DNA of 64,000 nt from Raineyella sp. LH-20 (GTDB lineage Bacteria > Actinomycetota > Actinomycetes > Propionibacteriales > Propionibacteriaceae). Of the stretch, positions 4,446 through 43,495 are shown in pieces; the stretch's first letter is position 1, and each line of letters starts with the position of its first letter. Position numbers and translations under genes: made by a program. The notes beneath the pieces were generated by a model, which saw nothing but the letters and a program-made list of their open reading frames with translations, was not told the DNA's origin and ran no database searches. The stretch spans positions 930,001 to 994,000 of the forward strand of contig NZ_CP137003.1 of assembly GCF_033110965.1 (NCBI RefSeq), given 5' to 3'.

Positions 4446-5821
4446 CCGGGATCCGGGGAGTCCAGCGGCAGCCGTACGGTGAACCGGGCGCCGCCCAGCG
4501 CCGAGGCGTCCACCGCCACCGTCCCCCCGTGGTTGGTGACGAGTTCGTGGACGATCGCCAGGCCCAGACCGCTGCCGCCCTCGTCCCGGGTCCGGGCAGT
4601 GTCGAGCCGGACGAACCGTTCGAAGACCCGTTCCCGTTCCTCCGGCGGGATCCCCGGCCCGTCGTCCTCCACCCGTAGCACCGCCGCGGCCCCGTCGGCC
4701 TCCACCGAGAGCACCACCCGGGAGGCCGCTGCGCGGACCGCGTTGTCGGCCAGGTTGCGCAGCACCCGGACGAGCTGCAGCCGGTCGCCGCGGATCCGGG
4801 TCGGCTCCACCTCGAAGAGCACCTCCACCCGCCCGGCGCCACGGGGCCGCCGCGCCTCCTCCACCACCAGGTCATCGAGGTCGACGTCACGCCATCGGCC
4901 CGAGGTCACCATCCCGGCGTCGCCGCGGGCGAGGGTGAGCAGGTCGTCGACGAGCCGCTCCATCCGCCGGGTCTCGGTCGACATCACCGGAGCGAGGTCC
5001 TGCCATCGGCGCCCGGACGGGTCACCGGTGCCCATCTCCAGGGCGGTGTGCAGGCTGGCCAGCGGTGACCGCAGTTCGTGGCTGGCGTCGGCGACGAATT
5101 GGTCCTGCTGCCGCCGGCCGCGTTCGAGACGGTCGAGCATGGCGTTCATCGTCAGCGCGAGCCGCCCGATCTCGTCGTCGACGTCGGAGATCGGCACCCG
5201 GGCCTCCAGGTGCCGCGAGGAGATCGACTCCACCGTCGTCCGGATGTCCTCCACCGGTTGCAGCGAACGACTGACCAGCCACCAGGCCACCGCCCCGGCG
5301 ACGAGGACGATCAGCGGAGTGCCGGCGAGCAGCAGCTTGAGCACGGTGTCGACGGCCTCGTACTGCGAGTCCTGGGAGACCGCCAGGACGGCGGTGCCGG
5401 ACCGCCCGTCGTACGCCACGCCGGTGGCCGCCACGACGAGACCGGGATCCTCCGTGGGCGCCGGCAGCGGGCTCGCCCCGGTGAGGACGACCTCCCCCAC
5501 CCCGGGCCGGGCGGTGGTGAGTGGCGTGTTCCCGTTGGTGGAGTAGACGACCGAGCCGTCGGGCCCGAGGAGCTGCACGCTGGCGCCGAGCGCCACCTCG
5601 GCGCCGGTCGCGCTGCTCAGCCCGTCGACGCCCTCGCGGCTGATGACCTCGACGACCGCGCTCAGCTGGCCGGTCGCCTCCCGGGTGACCGAGGCCATCA
5701 GTGCCGTGTAGAGGGCCAGGCTGACGATGACGGTGCCGACGACCAGGGCGATGCCGACGATCACCATGGTCGCGGCCGCGAGCTTGACCCGCATGCCGAT
5801 GCCCGGGACGCGCCGCCTCAT
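4412..5821 (-). CDS. Sensor histidine kinase
   Basis: Membrane sensor kinase, 469 residues. Two membrane helices (about 12-35 and 165-190) frame an extracellular region of about 130 residues. A HAMP linker follows (VEDIRTTVESISSRHLEARV), then the phospho-acceptor His in DASHELRSPLASLHTA near residue 248, and the ATPase with LRNLADNAVRAA (N box), VEDDGPGIPPEE (G1) and GGSGLGLAIVHELV (G2). It pairs with the adjacent response regulator, but the two genes face each other and overlap at 4412-4445; most pairs are co-directional. The 5' side carries two TCTCA words 11 bases apart (5901, 5912) that might be a regulator site. Confidence -1.
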   Translation of the reverse strand: MRRRVPGIGMRVKLAAATMVIVGIALVVGTVIVSLALYTALMASVTREATGQLSAVVEVISREGVDGLSSATGAEVALGASVQLLGPDGSVVYSTNGNTPLTTARPGVGEVVLTGASPLPAPTEDPGLVVAATGVAYDGRSGTAVLAVSQDSQYEAVDTVLKLLLAGTPLIVLVAGAVAWWLVSRSLQPVEDIRTTVESISSRHLEARVPISDVDDEIGRLALTMNAMLDRLERGRRQQDQFVADASHELRSPLASLHTALEMGTGDPSGRRWQDLAPVMSTETRRMERLVDDLLTLARGDAGMVTSGRWRDVDLDDLVVEEARRPRGAGRVEVLFEVEPTRIRGDRLQLVRVLRNLADNAVRAAASRVVLSVEADGAAAVLRVEDDGPGIPPEERERVFERFVRLDTARTRDEGGSGLGLAIVHELVTNHGGTVAVDASALGGARFTVRLPLDSPDPGQPAAGLSTTR

Positions 5822-35768: not shown

Positions 35769-37643
35769 TCAGTGGTCGCCGTTCAACCGGTGCAGCGCCT
35801 GGTCGGCAGCCTCCCGGGCGTGCTCGGCGGCGCCCTTGGCCGCCTGTCGGGCCGCCGCGATCCGCTCGTACATCTCGTCGACGACCGCCGCGAAACGCTT
35901 CTCCACCGCCCGCCGACGCACCTTCAGGGTCGGGGTGAGCAGCCCGTTCTCCATCGTGAACTCATCGAAGATCACCCGCAGGTCGCGGATCTTCTCCTGG
36001 TGCGGCAGCCTGGCCGAGACCTTCTCCACCCGCCGGCGCAGTTCGGCGAGCACAGCGGGATGCGCCACCAGGTCCTCCCGCGTGTCGTACGCGATGGCGT
36101 GCGCCTCCGCCCATGCCTCCAGCTCGCCCACGTCGGGCGAGATCAGCACGGTGACGCACGGCCGGTCGTCGCCGACCAGCACCGCATGGGCGATGAACGG
36201 GTCGGCGCCCAACTCCTCCTCGATCGGGCCGGGGGCGATGTTCTTGCCCTGGCGGGTGACGATCAGGTCCTTCAGGCGGTCGGTCACCACCAGGTAGCCG
36301 TCCACGTCGAAGTGCCCGATGTCGCCGGTCCGCAGCCATCCGTCGTGGAGGACCGCGGCGGTCGCCTCCGCGTCGTTCCAGTAGCCGGCCATCAGGTTGG
36401 GACCCCGGTACTCGATCTCACCGTCGCCCTCCGCGAGGTCGCCACTGTCCACCCCGGGCACCGGCACGATCCGGATCTGCGAACCCGGCATCGGCCGGCC
36501 CACAGATCCGAACCGCACCTGGCCGGGCGCGTTGTAGGACATCAGCGGAGCCGCCTCGGTCATCCCGTAGCCGGTGGTGATCAGCATCCCGCAGGCCCAG
36601 AAGAACTCCTCGACCTCCCGGCGCAGCGGGGCACCGCCGGCGACCATCAGCTTCTTCTGCCCGCCCAGGGCGTGGCGCACCTTCGACAGCACCAGCAGGT
36701 CAGCCAGCGCGAGCCGACCGCGCAGCAGCGGATCGGCCCGCAGCCCGGCCCGGCCGGCCCGCTGGGCCGCCAGGCCGGTCGCCACCGCCCAGTCGAGCAG
36801 TCGCCGCTTCAGCGGCGAGGACGCCTGCTCCCGTACGGTGCTCAGCACCCGCTCGTAGACCATCGGCACCATCACCATCAGTGACGTACGGGCCCGGGGC
36901 ATCATCACCGGCAGGGTGCGGGTGTCGGTGACGTACGTGTTGCTCGCGCCGGCGGCCAGCACGCAGAAGGTCCAGGCCCGCTCCAGCGCGTGCGCCAGTG
37001 GCAGGAAGCACAGGCTGCTGTCCTCCGGCGTGATCCCGAAGCTCTCCTGGACCACGGCGATCTCGGACAGGAACGCGCCGTGGGAGAGCATCACCCCCTT
37101 CGGGGTGCCGGTGGTGCCGGAGGTGTAGATGATCGTCGCCAGGCACCCGGGGCGCAGTTCCTCACGGCGCCGCCGGACCTCGTCGTACGCCTCGGGCGCC
37201 GGGTCCTCGGACAGATCCTCGTCGTCCATCACGACGACCCGCTCCAGGTCGGGCAGGTCGGCGCGCACCTGGGCGATCCGGTCGGCCTCCAGCACGGATC
37301 CGCAGAACACCCAGCGGGCGCCGGAACTCGCCAGGATGATCCGGGCCTGTTCGGCGGTGGAGGTCTGGTAGATCGGCACCACGATCGCCCCGATCGACAG
37401 CGTCGCCAGGTCGACGACGGTCCACATCGGTGAGTTCGGGGCGAAGATCGCCACCCGGTCCCCGACCTCGACCCCGTCGGCGACCAGCCGGGACGCGGTG
37501 GCCTCCCGCGCGAGCGCCAGCTCGGCGTAGGTCATCGTCGCCCAGCCGTCGTCCGTCCAGACCCGAGTGGCGATCCGGGACGGATGGGCAGCCACCGAGT
37601 TCCGGATCAGGTCGGAGATCGAGCGGGGCATGGTGGGGATCAT
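35769..37643 (-). CDS. Long-chain fatty acid-CoA ligase (AMP-forming)
   Basis: Activates fatty acids to acyl-CoA through an acyl-adenylate; 624 residues. The AMP-binding core is intact: ATIIYTSGTTGTPKGVMLSH near residues 168-187, GYGMTEAAPLMSYN, WLRTGDIGHFDVDGYLVVTD and DRLKDLIVTRQGKNIAPGPI with the Lys region. The C-terminal lid ends in FTMENGLLTPTLKVRR. It resembles the FAA1/FadD15-type long-chain ligases. It overlaps the upstream aldo/keto reductase gene as ATGA (start 37643). It stands back to back with the lipid-type genes at 39596-43017 and could supply their acyl-CoA; that link is inferred. Confidence -1.
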   Translation of the reverse strand: MIPTMPRSISDLIRNSVAAHPSRIATRVWTDDGWATMTYAELALAREATASRLVADGVEVGDRVAIFAPNSPMWTVVDLATLSIGAIVVPIYQTSTAEQARIILASSGARWVFCGSVLEADRIAQVRADLPDLERVVVMDDEDLSEDPAPEAYDEVRRRREELRPGCLATIIYTSGTTGTPKGVMLSHGAFLSEIAVVQESFGITPEDSSLCFLPLAHALERAWTFCVLAAGASNTYVTDTRTLPVMMPRARTSLMVMVPMVYERVLSTVREQASSPLKRRLLDWAVATGLAAQRAGRAGLRADPLLRGRLALADLLVLSKVRHALGGQKKLMVAGGAPLRREVEEFFWACGMLITTGYGMTEAAPLMSYNAPGQVRFGSVGRPMPGSQIRIVPVPGVDSGDLAEGDGEIEYRGPNLMAGYWNDAEATAAVLHDGWLRTGDIGHFDVDGYLVVTDRLKDLIVTRQGKNIAPGPIEEELGADPFIAHAVLVGDDRPCVTVLISPDVGELEAWAEAHAIAYDTREDLVAHPAVLAELRRRVEKVSARLPHQEKIRDLRVIFDEFTMENGLLTPTLKVRRRAVEKRFAAVVDEMYERIAAARQAAKGAAEHAREAADQALHRLNGDH

Positions 37644-38698
37644 TCCCGGGTCTGTTCGGCCCAGAGGTCGATCCCGGACTCGACGGCGTACGCCTCGATC
37701 GCCGTCAGCTCCTCCTGGGTGAAGTCGAGGTGCGACAGGGCGCCGAGGTTGTCCTCGAGCTGGCCGACGCTGGAGGCGCCGATCAGGGTGGACGACATCC
37801 GCGGGTCACGCAGCACCCAGGACAGCGCCATCTGGGCCAGGCTCTGGCCGCGGCCGCGGGCGATCTCGTTCAGGCCGCGGACCCGCTCGAGGGTCGCCTC
37901 GTTGAGCCAGTGGGTGTTGAACGAGGAGTGCATCGCGGCCCGGGAGTCCTCGGGGATGCCGTGCAGGTAGCGGTCCGTCAGCAGCCCCTGGCCGAGCGCG
38001 GTGAAGGCGATGCAGCCCATCCCCTGCTGCTCCAGCTCGTCGAGCAGACCGGTCTCGATCCACCGGTTGAACAGGTTGTACGACGGCTGGTGGATCAGCA
38101 GCGGGGTGCCCAGGTCGGCGGCGATCCGGGCGGCCTCCGCGGTCTTCGCCGCGGAGTAGGAGGAGATCCCGACGTAGAGCGCCTTGCCGGAGCGTACGGC
38201 CTGGTCGAGGGCCATCATGGTCTCCTCGATCGGGGTCTCCGGGTCGAAGCGGTGGCTGTAGAAGATGTCCACGTAGTCCAGGCCCATCCGCTCCAGCGAC
38301 TGGTCGAGCGAGGCGAGCACGTACTTGCGCGACCCGCCGCCCTGACCGTACGGGCCGGGCCACATGTCCCAGCCGGCCTTGGTGGAAATGATCAGCTCGT
38401 CGCGGTAGGGCTTGAGATCGGTGCGCAGGAACTGGCCGAAGTTGATCTCCGCGGCGCCGTACGGCGGGCCGTAGTTGTTCGCCAGGTCGAAATGGGTGAT
38501 CCCGGCGTCGAAGGCGCGGTGCAGGATTTCGCGCTGGTGGCCGAGCAGGTGGTGGTCGCCGAAGTTGTGCCACAGGCCGAGGGACAGCACGGGAAGCTTC
38601 AGTCCCCACTTCCCGACCCGGCGATAGACCATCGCGCCTGGGCGATCCGGGTCGTAGCGGTCCTCGGCAGCGACATAGGGTGTTCCGGAGAGCATCAT
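37640..38698 (-). CDS. Aldo/keto reductase, YghZ (Gpr)-like
   Basis: NADPH-dependent reductase of 352 residues, TIM barrel. Catalytic residues are visible: HFDLANNYGPPYGAAEINFG (Asp, Tyr), ELIISTKAGWDMWPGPYG (Lys) and DIFYSHRFDPETP (His). These segments match the YghZ / L-glyceraldehyde-3-phosphate reductase group and the potassium-channel beta-subunit relatives. Three in-frame ATGs (38707, 38698, 38695) compete; 38698 is 11 bases from GGAGGA, while 38707 is only two bases away. It is co-translated with the CoA ligase and divergent from nfo. Confidence -1.
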   Translation of the reverse strand: MMLSGTPYVAAEDRYDPDRPGAMVYRRVGKWGLKLPVLSLGLWHNFGDHHLLGHQREILHRAFDAGITHFDLANNYGPPYGAAEINFGQFLRTDLKPYRDELIISTKAGWDMWPGPYGQGGGSRKYVLASLDQSLERMGLDYVDIFYSHRFDPETPIEETMMALDQAVRSGKALYVGISSYSAAKTAEAARIAADLGTPLLIHQPSYNLFNRWIETGLLDELEQQGMGCIAFTALGQGLLTDRYLHGIPEDSRAAMHSSFNTHWLNEATLERVRGLNEIARGRGQSLAQMALSWVLRDPRMSSTLIGASSVGQLEDNLGALSHLDFTQEELTAIEAYAVESGIDLWAEQTRE

Positions 38699-38772
38699 GG
38701 CGCCCATTGTCCTCCGTCCCGTCCGGCGGCGTGCAGCGAACCCCCGGCCTCGCGCCGGGCTAGGGTCGGCCC

Positions 38773-39576
38773 ATGGCTGAACTCCCGGTGCCGGTCGGTG
38801 CCCACGTCGATGCCGCCACGTCCCTCGACGAGGCGCGAGCCGTCGGGATCCACGTGGTCCAGATCTTCATCGGTGATCCGCAGGGCTGGAAGAAGCCCAC
38901 GCTGGACGTCGAGGGCGGGCCCGCCGCGCTGCGCGAAGCGCTCGGCGAGGCCGGCGTCACCGCGTACGTCCATGCGCCGTACGTCATCAACGTCGCCTCC
39001 ACCAACAACCGGATCCGGATCCCGTCGCGCAAGCTGCTCCAGCAGACGTTGCACGCCGCCGCGGAGATCGGTGCGGCCGGGGTGATCGTCCACGGCGGGC
39101 ACGTCACCGCCGAGGACGAGCCCGGCCAGGGCGTCGAGAACTGGCACAAGGCGGTCGCGGGCTGCGAGATCCCGGTGCCGTTGCTGATCGAGAACACCGC
39201 CGGCGGCGCCCATGCGATGGCCCGCCGGCTCGACGCGCTGGCCGCGCTGTGGACGGCCATCTCGGCCGCGGAGGGCGCCGAGCAGATCGGCTTCTGCCTC
39301 GACACCTGCCATGCTTTCGCCGCCGGACTGGACCTGACCAGCGTGGTCGACGACGTCCGGGCCATCACCGGCCGGATCGACCTGGTGCATCTCAACGACT
39401 CCCGCGGCGCGGCCGGGTCGGGGGCGGACCGACACGCCAACCTCGGTGAGGGGCTGATCGACGCCACCGAATTGGTCGGTGTGGTCCGCGCCGCCGGGGT
39501 GCCCGCCATCCTGGAGACACCCGGCGGGATCGACGAGCGCCGGGCGGATCTCGCCTGGCTGCGTGAGCACCTCTGA
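38773..39576 (+). CDS. nfo: Deoxyribonuclease IV (endonuclease IV)
   Basis: AP endonuclease of base-excision repair, 267 residues, zinc TIM barrel. Metal-site motifs: VGAHVDAATSLDEAR, TAYVHAPYVINVAS, VIVHGGHVT, LLIENTAGGA, GFCLDTCHAFAAG, VHLNDSRGAAGSGADRHANL and the closing ILETPGG. All expected His/Glu/Asp ligands are present. The SDR gene starts 19 bases after its stop, so the repair gene may be transcribed together with the lipid-type genes, which is an odd mixture. Confidence -1.
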   Translation: MAELPVPVGAHVDAATSLDEARAVGIHVVQIFIGDPQGWKKPTLDVEGGPAALREALGEAGVTAYVHAPYVINVASTNNRIRIPSRKLLQQTLHAAAEIGAAGVIVHGGHVTAEDEPGQGVENWHKAVAGCEIPVPLLIENTAGGAHAMARRLDALAALWTAISAAEGAEQIGFCLDTCHAFAAGLDLTSVVDDVRAITGRIDLVHLNDSRGAAGSGADRHANLGEGLIDATELVGVVRAAGVPAILETPGGIDERRADLAWLREHL

Positions 39577-39595: not shown

Positions 39596-40381
39596 ATGGG
39601 AACTGCGCTGATCACCGGGGGGACCTCGGGCATCGGGGCCGCGTACGCGCGGGCGCTGGCCGAGCGGGGTGACCACCTGGTGCTGGTCGCGCGGGACCAC
39701 GCCCGGCTGGAGGACGAGGCGGCCCGGTTGCGGGCCACGTACGGGGTGCAGGTGGAGGTGCTGCAGGCCGATCTGGCGGACCGTACGCAGGTGAACACGG
39801 TCATCGCCCGACTGGAGTCCACGGTCGACCCGATCACCACCTTCATCAACAACGCCGGCTTCGGGCTGCACGCCGACCTGCTCACCTCCGACACCGAGAG
39901 CGACGAACGGGCGTTCGAGGTGATGATCCGTGCGGTCTATCTGCTCGGCGGCGCGGCTGCCCGGACCATGCTGCGACACGGCAGCGGGGAGATCATCAAC
40001 ACCTCCTCGTCGGCGGCGTTCATCACCACCGGCAACTACTCGGCGGTGAAGGCCTGGGTGCTGACCTACACCGAGGCGCTGGCCACCCAGCTGCACGGCA
40101 GCAAGGTCCACGTCACGGCGTTCTGCCCCGGTTGGGTGCACACCGAGTTCCACCAGCGGGCCGAGATCGATTCCTCCAAGCTGCCCTCCATCGTCTGGAT
40201 CGACGCCGACAAGGCGGTCCGCGAGGCGCTGGACGCCGCCCGGAAGGGCCGGGTGATCTGTGTGCCGACGCCGCAGTGGAAGATCGCCGTCGGGCTGGCC
40301 CGGGTGGTGCCGCGCAGCGCCATCCGGTGGGTCTCCAGCAAGCTGATCAGTTCCCGGGCGAAGGTCTCCGATGTCCGTTGA
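39596..40381 (+). CDS. Short-chain dehydrogenase/reductase, first gene of a putative ether-lipid operon
   Basis: NAD(P)-dependent SDR, 261 residues. The cofactor loop is TALITGGTSGIGAAYARALA, NNAG is present (FINNAGFG), and the active site reads NTSSSAAF with YSAVK (Tyr-x3-Lys). The C-terminus continues past the core (WKIAVGLARVVPRSAIRWVS), as in membrane-associated lipid SDRs of the DHRS7B / YqjQ type. Position before a PlsC-type acyltransferase and an alkyl-DHAP-synthase-like flavoprotein suggests an acyl/alkyl-DHAP reductase role, by analogy with the mammalian SDR of that step. This is inferred from neighbours, not from the sequence. ATG 39596. Confidence -1.
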   Translation: MGTALITGGTSGIGAAYARALAERGDHLVLVARDHARLEDEAARLRATYGVQVEVLQADLADRTQVNTVIARLESTVDPITTFINNAGFGLHADLLTSDTESDERAFEVMIRAVYLLGGAAARTMLRHGSGEIINTSSSAAFITTGNYSAVKAWVLTYTEALATQLHGSKVHVTAFCPGWVHTEFHQRAEIDSSKLPSIVWIDADKAVREALDAARKGRVICVPTPQWKIAVGLARVVPRSAIRWVSSKLISSRAKVSDVR

Positions 40382-40441
40382 GGTGCCGTACGCCCCCGGT
40401 CCCCGGTGGGCGACCAGGGATGCGGGTCTTAAGGTGATGCA

Positions 40442-41281
40442 GTGAGCACCGGACATCGCCGCTACACCTCGGCCAGCTGGGCGATGGCCCGTTTCGTCGC
40501 CCAGCGGGGCTTCATGAAGCCGCTGTTCTGGAGTCTGCTGAACGTCCACGTGCACGGCAAGAGCAACCTGGCCGGCATGTCCGGCCCGTACATCGCAGTG
40601 GCCAACCACTCCAGTCACCTGGACGGCCCGCTGGTGATGAGCTCACTGCCGTCCCGGCTGACCCGCTACCTCGCCACCGGTGCGGCAGCCGACTACTTCT
40701 TCACCAGCCCGATCAAGGCCTTCGCCCCGGTGATGTTCGTCAACGCCTTCCCGGTGGACCGCGGCGGCGGCCGGTCGAAGCACAAGGGCCTGTCCGGCAA
40801 CCTGCTCACCGAGGGCGTGCCGATCATGCTGTTCCCCGAGGGCACCCGCTCCCGCAGCGGCGCGATGGCGGCGTTCAAGCCCGGCCCGGCCGCGCTGTGC
40901 ATCTCCCGCAACGTCCCGGCGATCCCGATCGCCATCGTCGGCGCGCACCTGGCGATGCCGACCAACTCGGCGCTGCCGAAGTCCGGCCGGCCCGACGTCC
41001 ACATCGTGCTCGGCAAGCCGATGTGGGCCGAGAAGGGCGAGACGGCGCGCAAGTTCGCCGACCGGATGCACGACCAGGTGCTGCGGATGCACGACTCGAT
41101 GGCACTGGCGACCGGGTTCCCGACGATGGCGGACTACGCCGCCGAGGCCGAACGGGTGCAGCAGGAGCAGAAGGCGATCGAGGCCGACCGATCCACCGCG
41201 GACGTACAGGCCGACGACAGCAACCACGCAGGGGCGGACCGCCCGGCCACGCGTGACCGTGAGCGGAAGGACAACCAATGA
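40442..41281 (+). CDS. PlsC-type lysophospholipid / DHAP acyltransferase
   Basis: Acyl-CoA or acyl-ACP dependent acyltransferase, 279 residues. The four acyltransferase motifs are visible: AVANHSSHLDGPLV (HX4D catalytic pair near residue 55), VNAFPVDRGGG, IMLFPEGTRSRSG and VPAIPIAIVG. The C-terminal 60 residues are charged and probably disordered. Homologues usually acylate position 2 of 1-acylglycerol-3-phosphate; next to an alkyl-DHAP-synthase-like gene, acylation of dihydroxyacetone phosphate is an alternative. The stop overlaps the next start as ATGA. GTG 40442 is used. Confidence -1.
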   Translation: MSTGHRRYTSASWAMARFVAQRGFMKPLFWSLLNVHVHGKSNLAGMSGPYIAVANHSSHLDGPLVMSSLPSRLTRYLATGAAADYFFTSPIKAFAPVMFVNAFPVDRGGGRSKHKGLSGNLLTEGVPIMLFPEGTRSRSGAMAAFKPGPAALCISRNVPAIPIAIVGAHLAMPTNSALPKSGRPDVHIVLGKPMWAEKGETARKFADRMHDQVLRMHDSMALATGFPTMADYAAEAERVQQEQKAIEADRSTADVQADDSNHAGADRPATRDRERKDNQ

Positions 41282-43017
41282 CCGGCGTCAAGCACCAGAA
41301 GTGGTGGGGGTGGGGTGTCGAGGGGATCGGCTTCAGCCCGGAGGGCAAGCCGAACTTCGCCCCCTTCGTGAAGAAGCAGATCGGCCTGGACATCTCCGAT
41401 CCGGGCACCCCGCCGAAGTTCGAGGACCTCGACGTGCCGGCACCGGTGGTCGACGCCGGCTTGCGCGAGCAGCTGCTCGGCATCGTCGGTGAGCGGTTCC
41501 TCCTCGAGGACGACCTCGACCGGATCGTGCACACCTTCGGCAAAGGCGTCCGCGACCTGATCCGGATCCGTCGCGGCGACCTGCGTCGGGTCGTCGACCT
41601 GGTCGTCTATCCGGCCGACGAGTCACAGGTGCAGCGGATCGTCGACGCCTGTGTCGACGCCGACGCCGTGCTGATCCCGTTCGGCGGCGGCTCCAACATC
41701 GTCGGCGCCCTGGAGCCGGAGCCGGCCGAGCGGCGTACGGTCGTGTCGGTCGACCTGGGCCGGATGACGAAGGTGCTGGAGATCGACGACGAGTCCGGGC
41801 TGGCCCGGATCCAGGCCGGCGCGCTCGGCCCGCAGATCGAGGAGCAGCTCGGCCGACGCGGCTGGACGATGGGCCACTTCCCCGACTCGTTCACCCACTC
41901 CACCCTCGGTGGCTGGATCGCCACCCGCTCGACCGGCATGCAGTCCGACAAGTACGGCGACATCGCCGACATCGTCAAGGGCCTGCGAGCCGTACGCCAC
42001 GGCGACGTGTTGGCGCTGCGGCCACTGCCGTCGACCTCCTCGGGCCCCAGCGTCAAGGAGATGATCCTCGGCTCGGAGGGGCGTCTCGGCATCATCACCG
42101 AGGCCTGGGTGAACGTCCACCGGGTGCCCGAGGTGCGCGAGATCGTCGGCTACTTCTTCCCCGACTTCACCTCCGGCCTGCAGGCGATGCACGCGATCAA
42201 CACCTCCGACGCGCATGTCACGGTGTCGAGGGTCTCCGACGCGCCGGAGACGCAGTTCTCCTTCGCCACCCAGCGGGCCCAGCACGGCGTGCAGAAGATC
42301 GTGATGAGCGGGCTCTTCGGCTACCTCAAGCGCCGCGGCTGGGACCTCGACCAGATGTGCCTGTCGTACGTCGGCTTCGAGGGCGGCCGCCGCTATGTGA
42401 AGCAGAACCAGGCCATCGTCAAGCAGATCGTCAAGGCGCACGGCGGCATCGTCGTGGGCACCGGCGTCGGCGCGGTGTACGACTCCAAGAAGTTCCAGAC
42501 GCCCTACATCCGTGACTTCCTGCTGGACCGGGGCGCGACGGCCGACGTGTCGGAGACCACCACCCCGTGGTCGAATCTGCAGAACCTCTACGACACCACC
42601 ATCGAGGCGGCGAAGCAGGCGTTCGAGAAGGCGAAGACGCAGGGCTTCGTCATGTGCCACTTCGCGCACTCCTACCACAGCGGCGCCTGCCTCTACTTCA
42701 CCTTCGCCATCCCCGACACCGACGCGGACAGCACCTACCGCAACTACGACATGGTGAAGCGCGCCATCCAGCAGAACTTCATGGACGTCGGCGCGACGGT
42801 CTCCCACCACCACGGCGTCGGCAGCGAGCACACGCCCTGGCTGGCCGAGGACATCTCCGCGGCGGGCACCGCGCTGCAGCGGGTGCTGCTGGAGGGGGCC
42901 GACCCGGGCCGCAACTTCAACCCGGGCAAGATCCTCCACGACGGCAAGCCCGGTGTGGCCACGCACTCGTACGACGCCCCGCTGCCGGGCGGGGTGCCGG
43001 GCACGCCGGTCGACTGA
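41278..43017 (+). CDS. Alkyl-dihydroxyacetonephosphate synthase-like FAD protein
   Basis: Flavoprotein of 579 residues, VAO/GlcD-type FAD fold plus a cap, closest by motifs to alkylglycerone-phosphate synthase (AGPS), which swaps the acyl chain of acyl-DHAP for a fatty alcohol to make the ether bond. FAD loop: PFGGGSNIVGALEPE. AGPS-specific segments are kept: MGHFPDSFTHSTLGGWIATR then STGMQSDKYGDIADIV; SRVSDAPETQFSF (the Arg); SGACLYFTFAI (the Tyr); and VSHHHGVGSEHTPWL, the catalytic triple His. The N-terminal KWWGWG start is also typical of AGPS homologues. It is co-translated with the acyltransferase. Mycobacterial AgpS relatives exist with unproven activity, so the reaction here is likely but untested. 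Confidence -1.
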   Translation: MTGVKHQKWWGWGVEGIGFSPEGKPNFAPFVKKQIGLDISDPGTPPKFEDLDVPAPVVDAGLREQLLGIVGERFLLEDDLDRIVHTFGKGVRDLIRIRRGDLRRVVDLVVYPADESQVQRIVDACVDADAVLIPFGGGSNIVGALEPEPAERRTVVSVDLGRMTKVLEIDDESGLARIQAGALGPQIEEQLGRRGWTMGHFPDSFTHSTLGGWIATRSTGMQSDKYGDIADIVKGLRAVRHGDVLALRPLPSTSSGPSVKEMILGSEGRLGIITEAWVNVHRVPEVREIVGYFFPDFTSGLQAMHAINTSDAHVTVSRVSDAPETQFSFATQRAQHGVQKIVMSGLFGYLKRRGWDLDQMCLSYVGFEGGRRYVKQNQAIVKQIVKAHGGIVVGTGVGAVYDSKKFQTPYIRDFLLDRGATADVSETTTPWSNLQNLYDTTIEAAKQAFEKAKTQGFVMCHFAHSYHSGACLYFTFAIPDTDADSTYRNYDMVKRAIQQNFMDVGATVSHHHGVGSEHTPWLAEDISAAGTALQRVLLEGADPGRNFNPGKILHDGKPGVATHSYDAPLPGGVPGTPVD

Positions 43018-43099
43018 GCTCCGGCGGGTCCATCGATCTCGGTCCGACGGCGATGGCGACGCGCCCCCCAGGGGTGTCGTCGTCGGACGGCTCTTTCCG

Positions 43100-43441
43100 G
43101 TTGCGGTGCAGCTCGCTCCGGCCGCGGTGCACTTCGCTCCGGCCGGCGTTGCACCTCGCTCCGGCCGGCGTTGCACTTCGCTCCGGCCGCGGTGCACCTC
43201 CTCGCCCGTGCATTTGTGCTGAATGACAAGCACATTCGCGCGGGCGAGGCGTATGCCTCTGCGAATGTGTCTGACGCCACCTGCCACCTGCCACCTGCCA
43301 CCTGCCACCTGCCACCTGCCACCTGCCACCGATATCCATCTGCTGCGCTCGACCCTCATCCGCCGCGTTCCCAACCATCCGCCGCGTTCCCAACCAACCG
43401 CCGCACTTCCAGCCAACCGCCGCACTTCCAGCCAACCGCCG
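43100..43441. repeat. Cluster of short tandem repeats left of the IS element
   Basis: Three arrays lie side by side: GCTCCGGCCGCGGTGCACTT-like units of 20-22 bases (about 43108-43203), seven-base GCCACCT units (about 43278-43330), and 15-19-base CCGCCGCGTTCCCAACC / CCGCCGCACTTCCAGCC units (about 43360-43441). They flank a hairpin element at 43207-43275. No gene is supported in 43018-43444. Confidence -1.
43207..43275 (+). repeat. Dispersed hairpin element, copy A
   Basis: Contains TGTGCT-GAATGACA-AGCACA (stem 43215-43220 with 43229-43234), an overlapping larger stem CACATTCGC/GCGAATGTG (43231-43239 with 43261-43269), and an inner GAGGC-GTAT-GCCTC. Related copies are at 47571-47645 and 61346-61401. 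One plus-strand frame reads RAFVLNDKHIRAGEAYA, similar to frames in the other copies. Confidence -1.
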
Positions 43442-43495
43442 CGCTGAACCGCCCCGGCATGTCCGGAGACTCCGAACCTTGGGAAGGTTGGAGTC

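Follow-up and report, generated by a model that had tools for sequence, protein, structure and literature searches.

A conserved actinobacterial gene trio with an AGPS-like flavoprotein as the candidate core of a bacterial ether-lipid pathway

A run of three genes in Raineyella sp. LH-20 (Propionibacteriaceae) quite probably encodes the core of a bacterial pathway to alkyl-ether glycerolipids based on dihydroxyacetone phosphate (DHAP), as in peroxisomes. The genes lie in a window of 64,000 nucleotides, which corresponds to positions 930001-994000 of the complete genome of 3.63 Mb. As a sequence-only reading of this window had claimed, a short-chain dehydrogenase/reductase (SDR), a PlsC-type acyltransferase and a flavoprotein resembling the alkyl-DHAP synthase AGPS form one plus-strand run. 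All three open reading frames (ORFs) are real, and the start of the flavoprotein gene overlaps the stop of the PlsC gene as ATGA.

39596..40381, plus strand: classical SDR, the proposed acyl/alkyl-DHAP reductase; 261 amino acids (aa), ATG start
40442..41281, plus strand: PlsC-type acyltransferase, proposed to act on DHAP or alkyl-glycerol-phosphate; 279 aa, GTG start
41278..43017, plus strand: AGPS-like (alkyl-DHAP synthase-like) FAD protein; 579 aa, ATG start

From the gene order, conservation, family membership, residues, fold and co-occurrence described below, we infer the following reactions, their sequence and the lipid produced. The PlsC-type enzyme would transfer an acyl group to DHAP and/or, at a later stage, to the sn-2 position. 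The flavoprotein would replace the acyl group of acyl-DHAP by a fatty alcohol via a flavin N5 adduct, and the SDR would reduce the ketone of the resulting alkyl-DHAP, yielding 1-alkyl-glycerol-3-phosphate, which could enter normal phospholipid synthesis. The fatty alcohol would come from a fatty acyl-CoA reductase (FAR) fused to a HAD phosphatase domain, whose gene adjoins the trio in most relatives and occupies another chromosomal position in Raineyella. Such an actinobacterial route, suggested earlier from the sequence, is supported, short of proof, by the gene linkage, the AGPS identity and the FAR.

Family, residues and fold of the flavoprotein

When compared with all PDB sequences, the flavoprotein matched the AGPS of Dictyostelium (2uuu, E=1.9e-113) and of guinea pig (4bby, E=1.8e-72), and the next family, glycolate oxidase (E=5e-21), followed about 300 bits below AGPS. 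Its Pfam domains are FAD_binding_4 (110 bits) and FAD-oxidase_C (116 bits). Its NCBIfam glcD score, 117 bits against a cut-off of 568, leaves it outside the glycolate oxidase/D-lactate dehydrogenase family. With a VAO/PCMH-type FAD domain and a cap domain, it falls in the AGPS family, nearer to AGPS than to GlcD/LDHD.

The AGPS motifs pointed out in the sequence-only reading, namely VSHHHGVG, TLGGWIATR and the Arg and Tyr columns, are all present. It was observed in the alignment that H200, D203, T209, R318, R412, C471, Y473 and H510-512 correspond to AGPS residues; in guinea pig numbering, H300, D303, T309, R419, R515, D516, C576, Y578 and H615-617 are kept. Y473 is the counterpart of the catalytic Tyr (Tyr578 in guinea pig, Tyr508 in Dictyostelium) and is invariant in 23 aligned relatives, and at each of the 14 columns compared Dictyostelium AGPS has the residue of the window protein. 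Some of the positions listed are ones that we take to be key in AGPS. Two others are confirmed by the mutant PDB entries 4bca (Tyr578Phe) and 4bc7 (Arg419His). The Tyr is the proposed base and is essential in Dictyostelium AGPS (PMC3509576).

The residue set is shared by the examined members of clade A, the clade of the flavoprotein, in which T309 may be S. H300, D303, R419, R515, Y578 and the triple His are kept in clade A sequences and lost in the GlcD-type outgroup. In a maximum-likelihood tree, which holds two eukaryotic sequences, both partial, and no myxobacterial AGPS, clade A separates with an ultrafast bootstrap (UFBoot) of 100 and is joined to Dictyostelium AGPS by a split with a UFBoot of 97. 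The flavoprotein of Raineyella antarctica, the nearest named relative of the host, is 86% identical. Where the annotation was viewed, such AGPS-like genes were called merely 'FAD-binding oxidoreductase'.

An AlphaFold2 model of the flavoprotein (pLDDT 79.5, pTM 0.82) was used for a fold search, and the structural comparison proposed earlier came out with AGPS ranked first. The 37 best PDB matches were all AGPS chains, with E down to 2e-47 and template-modelling (TM) scores of 0.7-0.9, while the first D-lactate dehydrogenase appeared at E=5e-29, about 18 orders of magnitude behind. Sequence, residues, tree and fold all point to AGPS as the predicted activity and away from a glycolate enzyme or the simple D-lactate-type dehydrogenase that would have undone the earlier claim.

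Conservation of the operon and the probable source of fatty alcohol

The loci of relatives were selected by flavoprotein similarity alone, and the 72 with at least 3.5 kb of upstream flank were counted. On the same strand as the AGPS-like gene, an SDR lies upstream in 70 of these, a PlsC is present in 68 and both in 66. Finding the arrangement again in 66 of 72 loci, with the flavoprotein as the sole criterion of choice, is more than chance would give; the sequence-only reading, for which it would have been fatal to find the genes unlinked in all relatives, withstood this survey. The loci span Propionibacteriaceae genera, Jiangella, Phytoactinopolyspora, Kocuria, Brachybacterium, Brevibacterium, Dermabacter and Helcobacillus, and further include Herbiconiux, Plantibacter, Frondihabitans, Streptomyces and Actinacidiphila. 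The SDR and acyltransferase motifs are unbroken in nearly all of them.

The source of fatty alcohol, which the earlier reading had noted as missing from the window, is predicted to lie outside it. A PF07993 search of the Raineyella genome identified a FAR-HAD protein at C1:2765317-2767662, just after hisA. It consists of NAD_binding_4, a Sterile-like region under the Pfam cut-off (29.8 of 35.4 bits) and a HAD phosphatase domain, and carries the motifs TGxTGFxG and YxxxK. With the fatty acyl-CoA reductase 7eoz as its best PDB match (E=1.8e-50), it is predicted to belong to the alcohol-forming FAR family, and the combination of PF07993, Sterile and HAD is common to all six FARs scanned. In 55 of the 72 loci, a homologue is the direct neighbour of the operon; most of these genes are transcribed divergently from the SDR, and those in Jiangella run in the same direction.

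The two also co-occur across genomes. Within Propionibacteriaceae, the FAR is found in all 23 operon-positive genomes versus a single one, itself only 82% complete, of the 11 operon-negative genomes (Fisher p=8e-8; genomes within a family are not independent, so that Fisher values overstate significance). In a class sample of 395 genomes, it is present in 33 of the 37 with clade A versus 44 of the 358 others, and a count of coordinates places it on the AGPS contig within about 5 kb in 21 of the 37. These FAR counts use a strict E-value, and the four clade A genomes lacking a FAR are fragmented assemblies.

Weighing the proposed pathway

Several points, besides the dependence among genomes, weigh against the pathway as proposed. 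The Raineyella FAR is unlinked to the operon, and the FAR tree separates it from the operon-adjacent FARs as a sister subfamily; thus, its connection with the operon rests on architecture and co-occurrence and not on position. FARs about 50-59% identical to it are also encoded by genomes whose sole AGPS-like proteins are of clade B, a second, more distant and widespread actinobacterial AGPS-like clade. The acyltransferase is not of the GNPAT/GPAT type, as its best matches are PlsC/LPAAT models and a PlsC structure. Four loci, from Nigerium, Propioniciclava and two related metagenome-assembled genomes (L070, L076, L078, L080), hold FAR-SDR-AGPS without PlsC. Further, AGPS-like proteins with the triple His are present in catabolic plasmid operons as well, which makes the wider family functionally non-uniform.

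The acyltransferase is the weak point of the proposed mechanism, because it is PlsC/LPAAT-like and because those four loci do without it. It has a PF01553 domain (70.8 bits) and the motifs NHSSHLD and FPEGTR, and in the PDB it matches the PlsC structure 5kym alone (E=2.6e-10); the substrate could be DHAP or alkyl-glycerol-phosphate (at sn-2). The SDR is a PF00106 (adh_short) protein (134.8 bits) with the classical motifs TGGTSGIG (TGxxxGIG), NNAG and YxxxK. Its best NCBIfam match, at a sub-threshold 157.9 of 380 bits, is mycolate reductase, another keto-lipid reductase, and a characterised acyl-DHAP reductase was not found among its PDB matches. It is proposed to be the acyl/alkyl-DHAP reductase, with the specificity drawn from the operon context.

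As regards the end product, it is conceivable, if rather unlikely, that the product is not a bulk membrane phospholipid but some specialised ether lipid, for instance a signalling alkylglycerol, a glycolipid of the cell surface or an aldehyde/alkane derivative; this is a sub-case of the same pathway, differing in product and role. The HAD domain of the FAR might dephosphorylate alkyl-glycerol phosphate, diiron-type proteins flank the FAR in 28 loci, and Myxococcus uses ether lipids as signals in development (PMC7827237), all of which speak for such a product. The nearly complementary distribution of the membrane-lipid enzyme PlsA in Propionibacteriaceae, however, fits a membrane role. A DUF2229 (PlsA-like) gene is found in 9 of 11 operon-negative versus 6 of 23 operon-positive genomes (p=0.0035), a pattern confounded by lifestyle and based on a domain that alone can't tell PlsA from other members. 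Such a pattern is expected if both routes can substitute for each other.

Propionibacteriales are known to carry plsA (PMC9702350), and a PlsA-like protein with two BcrAD_BadFG stretches and DUF2229 is encoded in the Raineyella genome as well:

2684-7273 of L117 (C1:812000-822000), minus strand: candidate PlsA-like anaerobic plasmalogen synthase; 1530 aa

One of the four PF01553 proteins of the genome is encoded nearby, at C1:823832. The word 'aerobic', which the sequence-only reading had attached to the route, could not be upheld: the AGPS reaction is without net redox change, and Raineyella has this PlsA-type anaerobic enzyme too. PlsA/PlsR (homologue Ger) and the proposed pathway have the same product class, ether lipids. 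PlsA/PlsR, in contrast, reduces the ester of a finished phospholipid, uses neither DHAP nor fatty alcohol, and is built of unrelated proteins.

It may also be argued that the trio serves a plain acyl-DHAP route to diacyl phospholipids, in which the PlsC-type enzyme acylates DHAP, the SDR reduces the product and the flavoprotein has a side role. Yeast Ayr1 reduces acyl-DHAP. Neither PlsY (PF02660) nor a large PlsB-type protein was found in the Raineyella genome, where the four PF01553 proteins (L182-L185) are all small; the enzyme for ordinary sn-1 acylation is therefore not obvious, and another route would be needed. Nevertheless, this explanation is very unlikely. Three other PF01553 proteins are on hand, the trio is missing from one third of the sampled Propionibacteriaceae, which must still make phospholipids, four loci keep FAR-SDR-AGPS in the absence of PlsC, and the FAR linkage has no role in such a route.

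The relatives of the flavoprotein outside clade A bear on a last alternative. Clade B, about 35% identical to the flavoprotein, has Q303, T527 and S576 and keeps R419, R515, Y578 and the triple His; SDR-PlsC neighbours were not found in seven clade B loci (1.5 kb flank). AGPS-like flavoproteins on proteobacterial plasmids (L163, L164, L165, L168) lie in apparent catabolic clusters with AMP ligases, GST and GlcF. They depart from AGPS at D303 and C576, most of those examined lack R515 as well, and they probably catalyse another reaction. Both groups resemble the flavoprotein at about 30-38% identity and in the triple His and Tyr, but have Q for D303 and S or (mostly) A for C576. That the Raineyella protein is itself a 2-hydroxy-acid (D-lactate, glycolate or lipid 2-hydroxy acid) dehydrogenase, with the SDR and acyltransferase serving an unrelated lipid modification, draws on these plasmid operons with GlcF-type genes and AMP ligases, on Pfam domains common to GlcD/LDHD and on the weak glcD matches, but is very unlikely in view of the low glcD score, the lead of AGPS in sequence and fold searches, and the residues lost in the GlcD-type outgroup. 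BpfA-type flavoprotein oxidases were rejected as an identity, being 4-phenol oxidases from another VAO subfamily.

Surroundings of the locus, known systems and significance

Ferritin-like (diiron-type) proteins accompany the FAR in 28 loci, mostly as two diverged copies, in Microbacteriaceae, Streptomyces relatives, Kocuria, Brevibacterium and others. Examples flanking the FAR, with homologues across the 28 loci, are:

L044:2064-2855: ferritin-fold protein
L067:1616-2407 and 4756-5589: ferritin-fold proteins

A model of one gave acyl-ACP (acyl carrier protein) desaturases and aldehyde-deformylating oxygenases as its best, weak fold matches, and an aerobic lipid desaturase is one possible role for the pair. 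The family has no homologue in the Raineyella genome and was set aside as a part of the pathway there. For CarF/PEDS1 (PF10520), sought as a vinyl-ether step, no match was found in Raineyella or the 395 class genomes; control genomes also gave none, so that absence is not proven. A broader and speculative proposal, for which the chances appear slim, is that actinobacteria own a complete, portable FAR-HAD/SDR/PlsC/AGPS locus that replaces the PlsA route as lineages turn aerobic, and that in about half of the FAR-linked loci the diiron pair carries out the last step on the lipid, perhaps serving as an aerobic plasmalogen desaturase independent of CarF. Both the DHAP and the PlsA routes would then be present in Raineyella.

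The other features around the trio in the window are:

35769..37643, minus strand: long-chain acyl-CoA ligase (FadD-type; PF00501, 272 bits)
37640-38707, minus strand: aldo-keto reductase, between the ligase and nfo
38773..39576, plus strand: deoxyribonuclease IV, nfo (NF002198, 372 bits, cut-off 244)
about 43.5-44.75 kb, 3' of the flavoprotein gene: IS3-type element, recognised from its ORFs

The nfo gene is the nearest co-directional gene 5' of the SDR, with a gap of 19 bp, and adjoins the trio in several Propionibacteriaceae loci only. It is possibly co-transcribed with the trio, and its function is probably unrelated. The acyl-CoA ligase, described earlier as next door, is in fact two genes away, with the aldo-keto reductase and nfo intervening; among the relatives' loci, a close homologue occurs only in those of Raineyella antarctica and Propionicicella, and the ligase was dropped as a pathway member. 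Between the operon and the IS3-type element, region 43096-43445 contains eight perfect tandem copies of GCCACCT (43276-43330), along with further arrays of short repeats.

The eukaryotic peroxisomal pathway (FAR1, GNPAT, AGPS and acyl/alkyl-DHAP reductase) uses the same four protein types as the locus: a FAR, a PF01553 acyltransferase, an AGPS that agrees in its catalytic residues, and an SDR reductase. On the bacterial side, in contrast, these are gathered in one locus, the acyltransferase is PlsC/LPAAT-like, the FAR is fused to a HAD phosphatase domain, and there is no peroxisome. The closest bacterial precedent is the operon MXAN_1676-1674 of M. xanthus, in which the AGPS gene is accompanied by genes for a FAR/GNPAT-like fusion and for a protein of the NAD-dependent epimerase/dehydratase type; there, AGPS plays a minor role and the elb operon dominates (PMC9131029). 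The Raineyella locus is not of this myxobacterial type, as FAR-HAD and PlsC are separate genes instead of one protein, and the epimerase-type protein is replaced by a classical SDR. A Black Sea survey, in the portion available here, reports Agps homologues in metagenome-derived Actinobacteria as alkenyl-ether potential, and that portion does not mention the gene cluster (PMC11868695). No description of an actinobacterial SDR-PlsC-AGPS(-FAR) locus, and no usable lipid data for Raineyella or related genera, was found in the literature searched, which is a part of the whole; an earlier description is possible. By every test available the flavoprotein falls in the AGPS family, and the predicted pathway would be a variant of a known one, new in its gene content and organisation.

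The AGPS route from DHAP and fatty alcohol to ether lipids is considered typical of eukaryotes and their peroxisomes, and among bacteria the myxobacteria count as the exception. If the proposed pathway is true, the route would be widespread in actinobacteria (Propionibacteriaceae, Jiangella, Kocuria, Brachybacterium, Brevibacterium, Microbacteriaceae, Streptomyces relatives and others) and would represent an unrecognised way for a large bacterial group to build ether-linked membranes. The origin of the peroxisomal pathway would become testable by comparison. It would also provide small soluble enzymes with which the pathway behind a human disease, rhizomelic chondrodysplasia punctata, could be studied, and would add ether-lipid producers that biomarker studies leave uncounted.

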